Shown here one piece after another: positions 36,859 through 42,549 of a stretch of 64,000 nt of DNA. The stretch comes from Candidatus Kuenenia stuttgartensis (lineage in GTDB: Bacteria; Planctomycetota; Planctomycetia; Planctomycetales; Planctomycetaceae): the NCBI GenBank assembly GCA_945861865.1, contig CAMAWN010000005.1, positions 1 to 64,000 of the forward strand, given 5' to 3'. A program made the position numbers and the translations under genes. The first letter of the stretch is position 1, and every line of letters begins with the position of its first letter. The notes below the pieces were generated by a model. The model ran no database searches, was not told the DNA's origin, and was given only the letters and a program-made list of their open reading frames with translations.

Positions 36859-38060
36859 AAATCGTTCGCCGCCACGGCACGCCGACCTACGCCTTCGACA
36901 TTCGGCGGTTACGGGCGCAGGTCGAGAAGCTGCGCACCCATTTGCCGCCCGCAATCGAGATCTTGTACTCGCTGAAGGCCAACGCTTCGCTCGGCATTTG
37001 TGATGTGCTGAGGGATTGCGGCATCGGTGCTGACGTCGCCTCCGCCGGAGAATTGGCGACGGCTGTCGAAGCGGGCTTCCCGTCTCAGCGGATTTTCGTG
37101 GCTGGCCCGTTCAAACTTCCGGAAACACTCGCTCAACTGCGTGACTTGCCCGCAGCCGTCATCTCGGTGGATTCGCCGAGCGAACTGCAAATGCTTGCAG
37201 AACATCGCTTGCCCAACCCAATCGTGTTGCGGTTGCGACCCGACTTCGGTTCGCAAGCGGTTGTCGCGGCGGGACACGAGTCGCGGTTTGGCTTTGTCGG
37301 CGAAGATGTCTCCTCGTGCCGAACGCTGGTGAATTCGCGAGCGGTCAACGTCATCGGCTTCCATGTTTTTTCCGGTTCGCAATATCTGAACGCCGAAGGG
37401 ATCGTTGCACATTTGCGCGGCGCGTTGGCGATCTCGCTCCGAGCGGCTGACACTTTGGGGATCACACCCACGCTGCTGAATCTCGGCGGCGGATTCGGCA
37501 TTCCGTACGCATCGACGGCCGGCGAGTTGGATCTGGGAACCATTGGCGAAGAATTGGCGACGCTGACCCAGCGAGTGCCGACGACGCGGATTGTGCTTGA
37601 GCTCGGCCGATATTTGGTGGCACAGGCTGGCTGGTATTTGACATCCGTGCTCGGCCATCAGACCTTTCAAGGCCGGTCAGCCGTGGTGGTCGATGGCGGA
37701 ACTCACCAGCGCGCTGACATGTGCGGTCTTTGTCTGCGCACGAAGGCCAGTCCGCCCCTCGTCTTGGACGCATCAACTTCTGCGGTCACGCCCACCGACG
37801 TGCTCGGTTGCTTGAGCCTGCCGGCCGATGTGCTCACCGAATCTAGCCTGTTGCCGCGTCTCGAACCGGGAAACGTATTGGCGTTCGCCAACGCTGGTGC
37901 GTATGGCCTGTGGTCATCTCCGGCCATGTTCCACGGCAGCCCTTTGCCGGCCGAGGTGGCGTTCGACGGATCAGAAATTCAATTGATGCGCGAACAGCGA
38001 CCGGCGCGAAGTATTCTGGATGATCAACGACACGTGGTTGTGCGAGGTCATGATGCGTGA
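36825..38060 (+). CDS. Fold-III PLP-dependent decarboxylase
   Basis: A 411-residue enzyme of the alanine racemase-fold decarboxylases (diaminopimelate, ornithine and carboxynorspermidine type). The PLP lysine is Lys51 in ILYSLKANAS; GGGFGIPY binds the phosphate; the active-site Cys and Asp of the second subunit are in LGCLSLPADVL; and NAGAYGLWSS is the usual closing motif. ATG 36825 fits family start; ATG 36831 is possible. The gene overlaps both neighbours in the selenoprotein operon, so it is coordinately translated. The substrate is likely a basic or beta-amino acid derivative for a small molecule made by this operon. Confidence 0.85.
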   Translation: MEMDEVNRRLLEIVRRHGTPTYAFDIRRLRAQVEKLRTHLPPAIEILYSLKANASLGICDVLRDCGIGADVASAGELATAVEAGFPSQRIFVAGPFKLPETLAQLRDLPAAVISVDSPSELQMLAEHRLPNPIVLRLRPDFGSQAVVAAGHESRFGFVGEDVSSCRTLVNSRAVNVIGFHVFSGSQYLNAEGIVAHLRGALAISLRAADTLGITPTLLNLGGGFGIPYASTAGELDLGTIGEELATLTQRVPTTRIVLELGRYLVAQAGWYLTSVLGHQTFQGRSAVVVDGGTHQRADMCGLCLRTKASPPLVLDASTSAVTPTDVLGCLSLPADVLTESSLLPRLEPGNVLAFANAGAYGLWSSPAMFHGSPLPAEVAFDGSEIQLMREQRPARSILDDQRHVVVRGHDA

Positions 38061-38952
38061 ATTCTTGGTTTCGGTTTTATTCATTTTTTTGTGCATCGAG
38101 TTGACGGCCATGGGCCGGTCGGCAATGGCGAATGAACCGGCTACCGCGCCGCCCAAGATTGAAGTCTTGACGAACTCGATCGGTATGAAGCTGGCCCGCA
38201 TCCCGGCGGGGAAGTTCGTGATGGGGTCGCCGCGCACTGAACCAGAACGAGTTCGCGGAGAAGTGTCGCACGAAGTGACCATCAGTCAGCCATATTTCTT
38301 GGGCGTGTACGAAGTGACTCAAGCGGAGTTCGCCAAGATCATGGGTGGCCAAATCCAATCGACCTTTGGGAACAACAATGGCGGCGGACCAGATCACCCG
38401 ATGGAAAATCTGGAGTGGGCACAGGCCGCTGAGTTTTGCCGGAAGCTGTCGACACAGCCTGATGAACTCAGCGCCGGTCGCAAATATCGCCTGCCGACGG
38501 AAGCTCAATGGGAATATGCCTGCCGCGCCGGAACTGCCACGGCGTTTCATGGCGGCGCGTCGCTTTCATCGCTCAAGGCCAACTGCAACGGAAAGTCACC
38601 CTACGGCGATGCGGAGCCGGGACCGTATTTGCGACACACGGCCAAGGTCGGTTCGTATCCGGCGAATGCGTTCGGCCTGTATGACATGCACGGTAATGTC
38701 TCTGAGTGGTGCGCCGACTGGTACGCCCCGGAAGCCTACGATGAGAACGCCCAGATAGACCCGCGCGGTCCGCCGGTGGGGACGTTCCCGGACGACTTCG
38801 GCAATTTCTATTTGGTGGTCCGCGGCGGGTCGTGGCTGGATGATGCTCGTGCGTGTCGTTCGGCGTATCGGCAGCGAGCGATGCACAAAAACCGTTATCC
38901 TTGGATCGGCTTCCGCGTCGCGTGCGACGTCGACACGAAACAGTTGAAGTAG
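38050..38952 (+). CDS. Secreted FGE-sulfatase domain protein
   Basis: About 300 residues: an N-terminal signal (LVSVLFIFLCIELTAMG region) followed by an FGE-sulfatase domain with LARIPAGKFVMGS, YEVTQAEFAKIM, YRLPTEAQWEYACRAG, LYDMHGNVSEWCADW and VVRGGSWLDDARACRSAYR. True formylglycine-generating enzymes have two copper-binding cysteines in the last segment; only one is here, so it is probably not FGE in the strict sense. It is not SenA, which lacks a signal peptide and has a DinB domain. ATG 38050 is preceded by GAGG; it overlaps the PLP gene stop. Inference: exported tailoring or binding protein. Confidence 0.8.
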   Translation: MMREFLVSVLFIFLCIELTAMGRSAMANEPATAPPKIEVLTNSIGMKLARIPAGKFVMGSPRTEPERVRGEVSHEVTISQPYFLGVYEVTQAEFAKIMGGQIQSTFGNNNGGGPDHPMENLEWAQAAEFCRKLSTQPDELSAGRKYRLPTEAQWEYACRAGTATAFHGGASLSSLKANCNGKSPYGDAEPGPYLRHTAKVGSYPANAFGLYDMHGNVSEWCADWYAPEAYDENAQIDPRGPPVGTFPDDFGNFYLVVRGGSWLDDARACRSAYRQRAMHKNRYPWIGFRVACDVDTKQLK

Positions 38953-39008
38953 ACCGCTCACGTCGCAGGACTCTCCGAGTCGATCTACTTTGTGAGGGAG
39001 TTGACATC

Positions 39009-39347
39009 GTGAACCTCGCAACAACACGACGGATTGGTATTGCTCTGTTCGTGGCGGTGTCGTTTTCCGGATGCGGACGTTCTTCCGCACCCGAGACGCC
39101 GACGACGGCCGGCACCGAAACGGTGATGTTCCATGTGAAGGATATGGGCAAGCGATTGGCCTTGATGTGAGAAGATTGACCCAATCGGGTGAAAGAGGCC
39201 CTGGTAGGGCTTCCTGGCGTTGAGTTGGTCCGCGACGAATGGGACCATGATCTGTTGACGGTGACCTTCGACCGGCAGCAGATGACGGTGGAAAAGCTGC
39301 ACGCAAGAATCGTCCAAGAAGGCTTTGAAGCGGACGTGAAGAAGTAA
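39009..39347 (+). CDS. HMA-domain lipoprotein selenoprotein with Sec-x-x-Sec
   Basis: GTG 39009 has GAGGGAG eight bases upstream. The 112-residue product has a lipoprotein signal (VAVSFSGC, lipid-Cys about residue 22) and a linker, then VMFHVKDMGKRLALMUEDU. TGA 39168-39170 and 39177-39179 give Sec54 and Sec57 in the metal-binding loop that is Cys-x-x-Cys in MerP/CopZ/Atox1. The rest (PNRVKEALVGLPGVELV, then VTFDRQQMTVEKL) is a standard HMA fold to TAA 39345. Two in-frame TGAs at exactly the ligand positions are strong evidence against decay. It would be a membrane-anchored periplasmic metal-binding protein with a diselenol site. Confidence 0.85.
39195..39213 (+). promoter_or_regulatory. SECIS-like hairpin of the Sec-x-x-Sec lipoprotein
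   Basis: 8-bp stem GAGGCCCT/AGGGCTTC (one G-T pair), loop GGT. The loop starts 24 nt after the second TGA and 33 nt after the first, so one element could serve both. Confidence 0.65.
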
Positions 39348-39380: not shown

Positions 39381-40088
39381 ATGTCGAGCGATCTTGATCG
39401 CCCCTCGTTACCCGTCGCCAATTGCTGAACGACGAAAGCCATGCCGTTGCCGGGCGCAACGACGACACCTTCGAAACCTGCGTCCAATCGCGTTGAATTG
39501 ATCGCCAAGATCGGCACGATCGTCTCGGCGCTCATGGCGTCGAGCTGTTGCTGGCTGCCGGTCCTGCTGTTGGCGGTTGGCGTCTCTGGCGCGGGGATCG
39601 CTTCGACCTTGGAAGCCTATCGGCCGCTCTTCATGGTCGTGACGTTCAGCTTCCTCGGCATGGCGTTTTACTTCACCTACCGGCCACGGCGCGCGGCCAA
39701 CGCAACGGTCGATTGTTGCACACCGTCCACCGGCAAGCGGCGGTTCAACTTGATGGCGTTCAACAAAGTCATGTTGTGGACCGTCACGGTGATGGCTGTC
39801 GTGTTTCTCTTCTGTCCGCAGTTCGTGACCGGGTTGATCGGCACGGGCAGCGACAAGATCACTGCGGACATGACTTGCACCGAAATCAAAATCGTCGGCA
39901 TGACGTGTTATGGCTGAGCGGCCAAGGCCGCAGCGGCCCTGCATCAAGCACCGGGTGTGCTTGCCGTTGAAATTGATTATGAAAAGCGTCTCGCCAAGAT
40001 CGGCACTCCGCGCGACAAAGTTGTGCCGCGAGACGAACTGATCGAATCGCTCAAGTCGATCAGGTATCGCGGCGAGTTCGTGAAATAA
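39381..40088 (+). CDS. MerT-MerP (MerTP-like) fusion selenoprotein
   Basis: ATG 39381 (GGAG seven bases upstream) gives 235 residues, reading TGA 39426-39428 as Sec16 (ANCUTTKA) and TGA 39915-39917 as Sec179. Residues about 45-165 are MerT-like: helix 1 carries the mercury-binding SSCCWLP pair, followed by two more helices and a loop with another CC. Residues 168-235 are an HMA (MerP-like) domain whose loop is GMTCYGU, a Cys-x-x-Sec. The later ATG 39441 is less likely: it has no ribosome site and lies 10 bases into the hairpin after the first TGA. Mercury or other soft-metal uptake into the cytosol is inferred from family. Confidence 0.85.
39445..39461 (+). promoter_or_regulatory. SECIS-like hairpin of MerTP (first TGA)
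   Basis: 6-bp stem CGTTGC/GCAACG, loop CGGGC. The loop starts 23 nt after TGA 39426-39428. It supports the upstream start and a genuine Sec16. Confidence 0.6.
39945..39963 (+). promoter_or_regulatory. SECIS-like hairpin of MerTP (second TGA)
   Basis: 7-bp perfect stem CAAGCAC/GTGCTTG, loop CGGGT, nearly the same loop as at the first TGA. The loop starts 35 nt after TGA 39915-39917. Confidence 0.6.
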
Positions 40089-40103: not shown

Positions 40104-41219
40104 CTACGGCTTACCAACGGGGCGTTCTGCGAGCAGTGTGTCGACCGCTTTGTCCAATTCATCGCCCTTCACATCCTTGAACCGGATCACTCCGCGAGCA
40201 TCGAGGACATAGATGGCGGGGCGTTCGGTGACGTCCCATTTCGTCTGGATTGGCCCGTCCGGGCTGCCTTGGTCCCACCAGCTTCGCCAGGTGATTTCTT
40301 CTTTTGCGAGCGTCTTCTTCAGTTCGTCACGGTCTTCGTCGCTGTTGATGCCGAGAAGGACAAATCGCTTTTCTTGATCTTGCAGACGTTTCACGAGCGA
40401 CCGCTCGTGCGGGTACATCTCCCGGCAGGGGCCTCACCAATGCCCCCAGAAGCTGAGCACCACAACCTTGCCGCGATGTTCGCTCAGCTTGAACGTTTTT
40501 CCGAAGAGGTCTTCGCCGACGATCTCCGGAGCGACTCGGCCGATCGACAAGTGGCGGATTCGAAAGAGGGCCTTCTCGGCAATTTCGCCCAACGTGCCAT
40601 CGGAGGTCGGTACGTCGGCAAACGACTTGAGCATCAGTTCGTAATGTCGTTCGCGTTTCTTTTCCAACGGCTCCCGATCGAGCGACTTCAGGTGCTTGCC
40701 GTACTCAGCGCCGTAGAACTGCAACACGCGATCGGCCGACTCCGGTTCTTTTTTCAATTGGTCAACGACGCTCGCCTGTTGGTCGAGCAAAAATGCCAAC
40801 TGCCGACAGGCTTGGCCGCGCACTTTGTCGTGCTTGCTCGTTTCCATCGCCGTGCGCAACAACTTTTCTGCACCCAGAGCGGGAGTCCGCGCAACGTGCC
40901 GGCAAGCCGCTGCGAATTGTTCGTTGTTGAGATGATCGCGTTCGAGTATTTCCAAAGCGCGAGTCGCTTCGGGGCGGATGCGGAGTTTCGTCAGCACCCA
41001 GACCAACGCATCGATCGCGACTGGATCGCCGGCATGATTGCCCGCAAGGTCGAGAAATCGCGCGGCCAACTCTGGAGCCGTTGCGCCTCCTTCGTATTCG
41101 TCGAGCAGCTTCTGATATCGAGCGGCTGGTGCAGTCGTCTCTTTCTGCGACGCATTCGCCGGGTCGACGCAGAAAAGAATCAGCATCAAGCTCAAGCCGT
41201 CGATGATTTTCGATGACAT
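40104..41219 (-). CDS. TlpA-like thioredoxin selenoprotein with WUGPC active site
   Basis: Reading TGA 40434-40436 as Sec262 joins two halves into 371 residues. ATG 41219 (AAGGG seven bases upstream) starts a signal peptide (LSLMLILFCVDPANA), then about 190 residues of alpha-helical repeats, then a TlpA/AhpC-TSA-type thioredoxin fold: LGEDLFGKTFKLSEHRGK and VVVLSFWGHWUGPCREMYP. The normal WCGPC of thioredoxins is WUGPC, with Cys265 resolving. The C-terminal part continues VLLGINSDEDRDEL and ends RPAIYVLD...VIRFKDV as in TlpA. It is convergent with the MerTP gene, 15 bases apart, and follows a diheme cytochrome gene by 31 bases on its own strand. Likely a periplasmic reductant for the Sec or Cys metal proteins. 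Confidence 0.88.
40392..40409 (-). promoter_or_regulatory. SECIS-like hairpin of the TlpA-like selenoprotein
   Basis: Perfect 7-bp stem CACGAGC/GCTCGTG on the minus strand with loop GGTC, matching the GGUC core known from the E. coli formate dehydrogenase SECIS. The loop starts 32 nt after the TGA. Confidence 0.75.
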
Positions 41220-41250
41220 GTTCTGCCCTTTCAGCGGTTCGACCCCGGCG

Positions 41251-42549
41251 TCACTTCGCAGACTTGAGTCGCACAAACGGATCCGAAAACTTCGGGTCGG
41301 AAATCAGCGTCCCGTCGGTGAGCGTTTTCATGAAGGCGACCAGCGCCGCTTTTTGTTCAACGGTCAGTTGGAATCCCAAAGTGGCTCCCTTGACCGGCTG
41401 TTCGCCGAATGCCAAGCCGAGATTCTCGTGAGGATGAACGCCGCGACTGTAATGTTCGACGACTTCGTCCAAGGTTTTGAATCGCCCGTCGTGCATGTAC
41501 GGCGCGGTGAGCGCGATGTTCCGTAACGACGACGCTTTGAACTTGCCGTCGTTGGACGGCGTGAACGGGTCGTTCGACGGTCGGTCCAGCGTCCCCAGTC
41601 CTTGATCCTTGGATTTCAAGTCGAGCCCGTTGTTGAATGCTTTGGGCATGCCGAACGTCGGCGGGATGTGACAATGCGCGCAGCCCATTTCGGCGACTCC
41701 ACCAATGCCGTCGATGAACAGTGACTTGCCGAGATTCTCCTGGTCCGTGAATTTGTCAAACGGGACCGAGTAATTTCCGCCGGCGGCGTCCGCAGCGTGA
41801 TCAAACTTGGCATTCCATGCGACCATGCTGCGCAGGAATTGAGCGACGGCTTTGGCAAGACGGTCGCTGGTTACTTCGGGAGAGCCGAACGCGGCGGCGA
41901 AGAATGGCGGGTAATACGGAAGCTTTTGAAGCTTGGTTTCCAGATCGCTCAAGTCCATGCCCATTTCGATGCGGTCCTGAATCGGCATGAGCACCTGCGC
42001 CTCCAGAGTCGCGGCTCGTTCGTCCCAGAAGAACCCCGGCCGTGCTCCATTGAAATTCGTGAACCGCAGGTTTGCCAATCCCATCGAATTGCGAGAGGTG
42101 CGGCCCCTTTCGAAGCCCACGCTGAATGGTTTCGGATCGGAGAAGCCGGCTCGCTGATCATGACACGCAGCGCACGACACGGTGTTGTTGCGTGAGAGGT
42201 GAGTGTCGTGGAACAACACCCTGCCCAACTCCGCACCCGCGTTGGTCAACACGTTTTGCTCGGTCGAGTTATCGCTCTGTGCGAACTCCGCCGCAGCAAC
42301 ATGCTTGGGGAGTCGAACCGACGTGTAGTCATCCGACCGTTGCGGCAGCAGCGGCACATCGACACCGCCGAACGCCTCGCGCAGAGCGGTTCGCTCGTGA
42401 TTGTTGAGAGTGCCGTCCTGATCCGCGTCAAATCGGCTCAGCAGAGCGTCGCGACGAAACATTTTAACGGACAGTGCCGGCTCCTCAGCCAAGACACTCA
42501 GCGCGAGCAAGCAGATCGCAAAAACAAGGCTTGTTCGGAGTCTGGACAT
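41251..42549 (-). CDS. Diheme cytochrome c peroxidase/MauG-family protein
   Basis: A 432-residue secreted protein (signal SLVFAICLLALSVLAEE). Two c-type heme sites are seen: SCAACHDQ (residues about 130) and MGCAHCHIPP (about 300). An EF-hand-like FDADQDGTLNNHE lies at about residue 40. These match MauG/CcpA-type diheme peroxidases, which reduce peroxides or modify proteins. It shares a strand with the Sec TlpA gene 31 bases downstream, so the two probably form an operon. That suggests electron exchange in the periplasm. The normal reductive partner is not identified. Confidence 0.85.
   Translation of the reverse strand: MSRLRTSLVFAICLLALSVLAEEPALSVKMFRRDALLSRFDADQDGTLNNHERTALREAFGGVDVPLLPQRSDDYTSVRLPKHVAAAEFAQSDNSTEQNVLTNAGAELGRVLFHDTHLSRNNTVSCAACHDQRAGFSDPKPFSVGFERGRTSRNSMGLANLRFTNFNGARPGFFWDERAATLEAQVLMPIQDRIEMGMDLSDLETKLQKLPYYPPFFAAAFGSPEVTSDRLAKAVAQFLRSMVAWNAKFDHAADAAGGNYSVPFDKFTDQENLGKSLFIDGIGGVAEMGCAHCHIPPTFGMPKAFNNGLDLKSKDQGLGTLDRPSNDPFTPSNDGKFKASSLRNIALTAPYMHDGRFKTLDEVVEHYSRGVHPHENLGLAFGEQPVKGATLGFQLTVEQKAALVAFMKTLTDGTLISDPKFSDPFVRLKSAK

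Follow-up and report, generated by a model that had tools for sequence, protein, structure and literature searches.

The window (the whole stretch of 64,000 nucleotides analysed here, from a draft assembly of 351 contigs that is 90% complete) contains a short gene at positions 39009–39347 on the forward strand, with a GTG start, a TAA stop and a predicted product of 112 aa; an RBS-like GAGGGA, read directly, is positioned 5′ of the GTG at 38994–38999. Translation of the window shows that the frame is interrupted by exactly two TGAs, at 39168–39170 and 39177–39179 (predicted Sec54 and Sec57), giving the local sequence ...DMGKRLALMUEDUPNRVKEALVGLPGVELV... These align with the first and second cysteines respectively of the CxxC motif in HMA domains. 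Pfam HMA (PF00403) covers residues 52–107 with a score of 31.8 bits (gathering cut-off 24.8), and an AlphaFold2 model built from a 57-row alignment (mean pLDDT 73.7) has the beta-alpha-beta-beta-alpha-beta fold, placing the protein in the HMA family by both score and structure. The closest solved structure is MerP (1osd; E 1.5e-6), among matches to MerP/ATX1-type structures. The model also has an additional helix at residues 46–52 within the metal loop, a region of modest confidence (pLDDT about 69 around the two Sec residues). The N-terminal signal carries a lipobox-like FSGC (39063–39074, forward strand; LSGC, FSGC or ISGC among congeners), and the protein is therefore likely a lipoprotein. 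We agree with the first-pass annotation that the HMA fold and the lipoprotein signal are intact.

The two genes that follow also appear to encode selenoproteins, which the first-pass annotation does not mention. Immediately downstream on the same strand is a MerT-HMA gene (39381–40088) conserved in five congeners, with a MerT domain (PF02411) scoring 57.1 bits against a gathering score of 32.9 and containing SSCCW, and a C-terminal HMA domain. The ORF caller places its start at 39441 and its end at 39917, but the ATG at 39441 is missing in four of the five congeners, whereas that at 39381 is common to them and is the probable start. The frame from ATG 39381, with a TGA following NC, is kept in all five congeners, including its amino acid sequence, and the equivalent motif in relatives is NCU or DCU (e.g. 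DCU in Fuerstiella and in another Planctomycetaceae record, loci L129 and L147) and DCC in distant ones; for these reasons we regard this TGA (39426–39428) as probably encoding Sec16. A hairpin 22 nt past it (CGUUGC-CGGGC-GCAACG; 39445–39461) would be a marginal SECIS, as its energy is marginal and it fails a strict scan. The second TGA (39915–39917; predicted Sec179) lies in the HMA motif, with a hairpin (CAAGCAC-CGGGU-GUGCUUG; 39945–39963) 34 nt past it. This motif is GMTCYGU in all congeners, and distant relatives have CxxC, with GMTCEAC in distant neighbours of the UxxU genes. Four other loci (L080, L081, L198 and L199) show a further Sec-containing form of this loop: their MerT-HMA or MerP-like proteins have U-x-x-x-C, with three residues rather than two between Sec and Cys.

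Convergent with these genes is a TlpA-like thioredoxin-fold gene (40104–41276, reverse strand) with the motif FWGHW-U-GPC. Its TGA is at 40434–40436 and a SECIS hairpin (CACGAGC-GGUC-GCUCGUG; 40392–40409, both on the reverse strand) is 31 nt past it; the motif is UGPC or USPC among congeners, and UGPC in L129 and L147. There are thus five predicted Sec residues across three adjacent genes. Upstream of the UxxU gene is a gene for an FGE-sulfatase-domain protein (38020–38952, forward strand) that is a conserved neighbour in three genera. The order of FGE-domain protein, UxxU lipoprotein and MerT-HMA, with the UGPC TlpA gene nearby, also occurs in L129 and L147, and a locus titled Akkermansiaceae (L115) has the first three of these genes in the same order.

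A single hairpin at 39195–39213 on the forward strand (8 bp stem, apical GGU, about -11.3 kcal/mol) is 23 nt past the Sec57 UGA and 32 nt past the Sec54 UGA. The constraints described for bSECIS elements are a 3–9 nt loop, a 4–16 bp stem, a G among the first two loop bases, a distance of 16–37 nt from the UGA and an MFE of at most -7.5 (PMC13188914), and the hairpin satisfies all of them with its 3 nt loop, its stem, its energy and its distance from either codon. The earlier proposal that one hairpin could serve both codons is therefore well founded. Among the 2038 TGAs of the window that could be tested by the same rules, only 1.6% have a hairpin at -11 kcal/mol or better. A small second hairpin (CCC-GGG; 39180–39189, forward strand), in which alignment pair 15–20 covaries (CG/GC/UA), immediately follows the second UGA. 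Alignment of 22 family genes shows that the position of the SECIS hairpin is constant, and that for the two hairpins together 93% of cells are paired, with 17 double-change cells. Shuffled alignments give 7.0 ± 1.6 double changes (none of 500 reached 17) and slid controls at most five; the slid controls carry more weight because shuffling ignores relatedness. Synonymous change is also depleted in codons 54–72 (3/19) relative to codons 36–53 (10/15; Fisher p about 0.004–0.01).

Intact UxxU genes with both TGAs are present in four further congeneric genomes at 77–88% identity, although the distribution within the genus is patchy: of the twelve members searched, five have an intact copy and one more (G009) has a remnant. 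In this remnant (L031, near 2890–3018 of contig C151) the UxxU gene is cut to its C-terminal third while the MerT-HMA and TlpA regions are intact, a pattern of loss of the lipoprotein alone. We note that one record titled Candidatus Kuenenia stuttgartiensis (L124, CAMDPK010000045.1) has the locus of a close congener of the source genome, and the title is probably wrong. Two profile searches across the phylum, the first with a profile from 5 sequences and the second from 57, both found the double TGA in genomes from many families. Among the 30 strongest matches in the second search (59.7 bits or more) all have at least one TGA and 29 have two; the all-Cys matches that we sampled below 59.7 bits have a short canonical loop. 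CxxC is absent from the sampled long-loop group, and the exceptions seen there are UxxC, with Cys at the second position (L056 and L190). At L190 (G161, contig C298, about 7.8–8.0 kb) the UxxC long-loop HMA gene adjoins a UxxU one, and genomes G080 and G299 have similar neighbour genes carrying one TGA. The assignment of both Cys positions to TGA in the first-pass annotation is thus borne out by congeners and distant relatives alike. Homologues with non-Cys residues at both sites had been named as evidence that would count against it, and in our alignments the two positions are always U or C.

Relatives were also sought using a 20-base SECIS pattern from the RNA of the UxxU gene, scanned over genome_contigs. 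The scan returned 86 stretches, 80 of which were examined, and 77 of these encode UxxUP HMA proteins in relatives that span several phyla; the other three (L087, L136 and L157) are chance matches. The pattern itself requires both TGAs and the proline, and cannot give the frequency of Cys, which was judged from the profile searches instead. A C-terminal Trx domain is fused to the HMA domain in 50 of the 77 loci, and in 13 the Trx is itself UxxC. Within the DNA available around each locus, 23 of the 77 have a MerT-like gene on the same strand, usually adjacent; MerT is a soft-metal transporter and is the most often identified neighbour of UxxU genes here.

Two loop types can be distinguished. 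In 66 of the 77 loci GM is separated from the first Sec by seven or eight residues; the window protein has seven, with DM (residues 45–46) standing for the conserved GM and M53 immediately before U54. The other 11 have the short canonical GM-x-UxxUP, and all are titled Rokuibacteriota, Methylomirabilota or NC10. The window protein does not have canonical G-M-x-C-x-x-C spacing, and because the planctomycete loop exceeds that of canonical HMA domains by 6–7 residues, the earlier description of a canonical M-x-C-x-x-C loop does not hold.

The report of a UxxU metal-binding protein reportedly traces to Zhang and Gladyshev's study of the Olavius symbiont. Such proteins are represented by NCBIfam NF041115 (UxxU_metal_bind), listed as 'Metal-binding protein (putative mercuric reductase), UxxU, 2 Sec' (PMC13188914), and are also described in a review (PMC9312934), and a di-selenol HMA loop is therefore not the unusual first case that it had been taken for. 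The window protein shares with NF041115 the HMA domain and Sec at both ligand positions, but it scores only 31.7 bits against a curated cut-off of 95, its loop is longer, it has an evident lipobox, and many of its relatives have the C-terminal Trx. Long-loop relatives tested score 26.7–61.5 bits, and short-loop members found with the pattern 90–112 bits, three of the six tested exceeding the cut-off; none of the long-loop members tested passes the cut-off of any NCBIfam model. The protein resembles MerP (TIGR02052) in its fold, its best PDB match and the adjoining MerT, but has Sec in place of Cys, a long loop and a probable lipid anchor, and scores 30.9 bits against 92.55. Selenoproteins linked to mercuric transport are also known, including a 'putative mercuric transport protein' with C/SxxU (PMC13188914) and examples in the GOS data (PMC2398784). 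The neighbouring MerT-HMA is, like the MerT/CopZ fusion-like heavy metal transport selenoprotein NF045683, a MerT relative with Sec, but scores 57.4 bits against 375; it shares with the MerTP fusion NF033556 a MerT followed by a C-terminal HMA, but scores 99.5 bits against 180 and carries one Sec within its HMA motif and probably another towards the N-terminus.

The source genome encodes tRNA-Sec, SelA, SelB and SelD, all above cut-off; the first-pass annotation had named absence of SECIS machinery as grounds for rejecting its reading, and the machinery is present. No protein in the genome reaches the cut-off for MerA; the best candidate for a mercuric reductase scores 369.5 bits against 454.45 and is without the C-terminal Cys pair. 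A classical mer operon was rejected on these grounds, and detoxification of mercury in its classical form finds no support. Judged by MerP score and mercuric reductase, the gene does not qualify as MerP or as part of a mer operon, and without a MerA above cut-off the metal need not be mercury. A plasmid near-match search gave no match.

Taken with the co-localised MerT and TlpA selenoproteins, the conserved double TGA, the covarying SECIS, the Sec machinery and the HMA fold suggest a probable role for the product as a periplasmic soft-metal-binding lipoprotein that relays metal to MerT and is kept reduced by a thioredoxin partner. We infer that SelB reads both UGAs as Sec, directed by the one SECIS hairpin in range of both, and that the HMA domain of a periplasm-facing lipoprotein would then carry a Sec-x-x-Sec-Pro loop. 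With two selenols in place of cysteines, binding of a soft metal such as Hg, Cu(I) or a similar ion would most likely be tighter, and the metal could then be handed to the MerT encoded next door, which itself has a CxxU HMA domain. The reduced form may be kept or restored by a thioredoxin-fold protein, either the UGPC TlpA-like neighbour or the Trx fused in most relatives. Diselenides have low potentials, and a periplasmic di-selenol site would need a reductant, which fits a Trx partner. Counting against a metal relay are the lack of a MerA above cut-off, the patchiness of the gene, the modest confidence of the structural model in the metal loop, and the fact that the Trx fusion and the chemistry of Sec suit a redox role equally well.

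It is possible, but rather unlikely, that UxxU is instead a redox centre, with the HMA fold turned into a selenol/diselenide exchange domain partnered by the fused or neighbouring thioredoxin and acting on substrates such as metal or metalloid oxyanions, or the cysteines of MerT. The frequency of the Trx fusion (and its own UxxC motif in some loci), the maintenance of the UGPC TlpA neighbour across three genera, and the combination of a longer loop with a proline conserved after the second Sec, unlike canonical metal-binding HMA domains, are all consistent with this. However, the Sec residues are exactly at the HMA metal-ligand positions, and the adjoining MerT itself has a CxxU or CxxC HMA domain. 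We think it improbable that Sec is efficiently inserted at one UGA only, or that the UGAs chiefly serve as a switch by which low selenium gives a shortened protein; sharing of one SECIS by UGAs 9 nt apart could limit yield, and UxxC members do occur, but nearly all long-loop members keep both UGAs, the hairpin spacing is constant and in range of both, and the protein downstream of the UGAs is under strong purifying selection. Sequencing error, a pseudogene or a chance frame can be dismissed, in spite of the draft assembly, because the identical two TGAs are conserved among homologues in dozens of independent assemblies together with a covarying SECIS.

A literature search turned up no account of the locus, of the long-loop proteins as a family or of their fusion to Trx, although the source papers of the NCBIfam models were outside its scope and priority is uncertain. 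What may be new is the long-loop subfamily, in which we saw no all-Cys member, the commonness of its Trx fusion, and the locus with MerT-HMA and the UGPC TlpA-like gene. Because short-loop UxxU proteins have been catalogued previously, the surprise is limited. The preferred reading of a metal relay extends, at about even odds, to a pathway by which planctomycetes and their neighbours would handle soft metals with selenium, composed of a long-loop UxxU lipoprotein that apparently always uses Sec, a MerT with Sec in an N-terminal CU and a C-terminal CxxU, and a UGPC thioredoxin-fold partner, with one SECIS for two UGAs nine bases apart. Ordinary annotation breaks all three genes at the UGAs, and the pathway would be hidden by it. 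The long-loop family offers a natural case in which two Sec are apparently decoded via one SECIS. Most roles assigned to Sec in bacteria are in redox catalysis, and a locus with Sec at the metal-ligand positions of both a binding protein and a transporter would test whether Sec is selected for metal binding.
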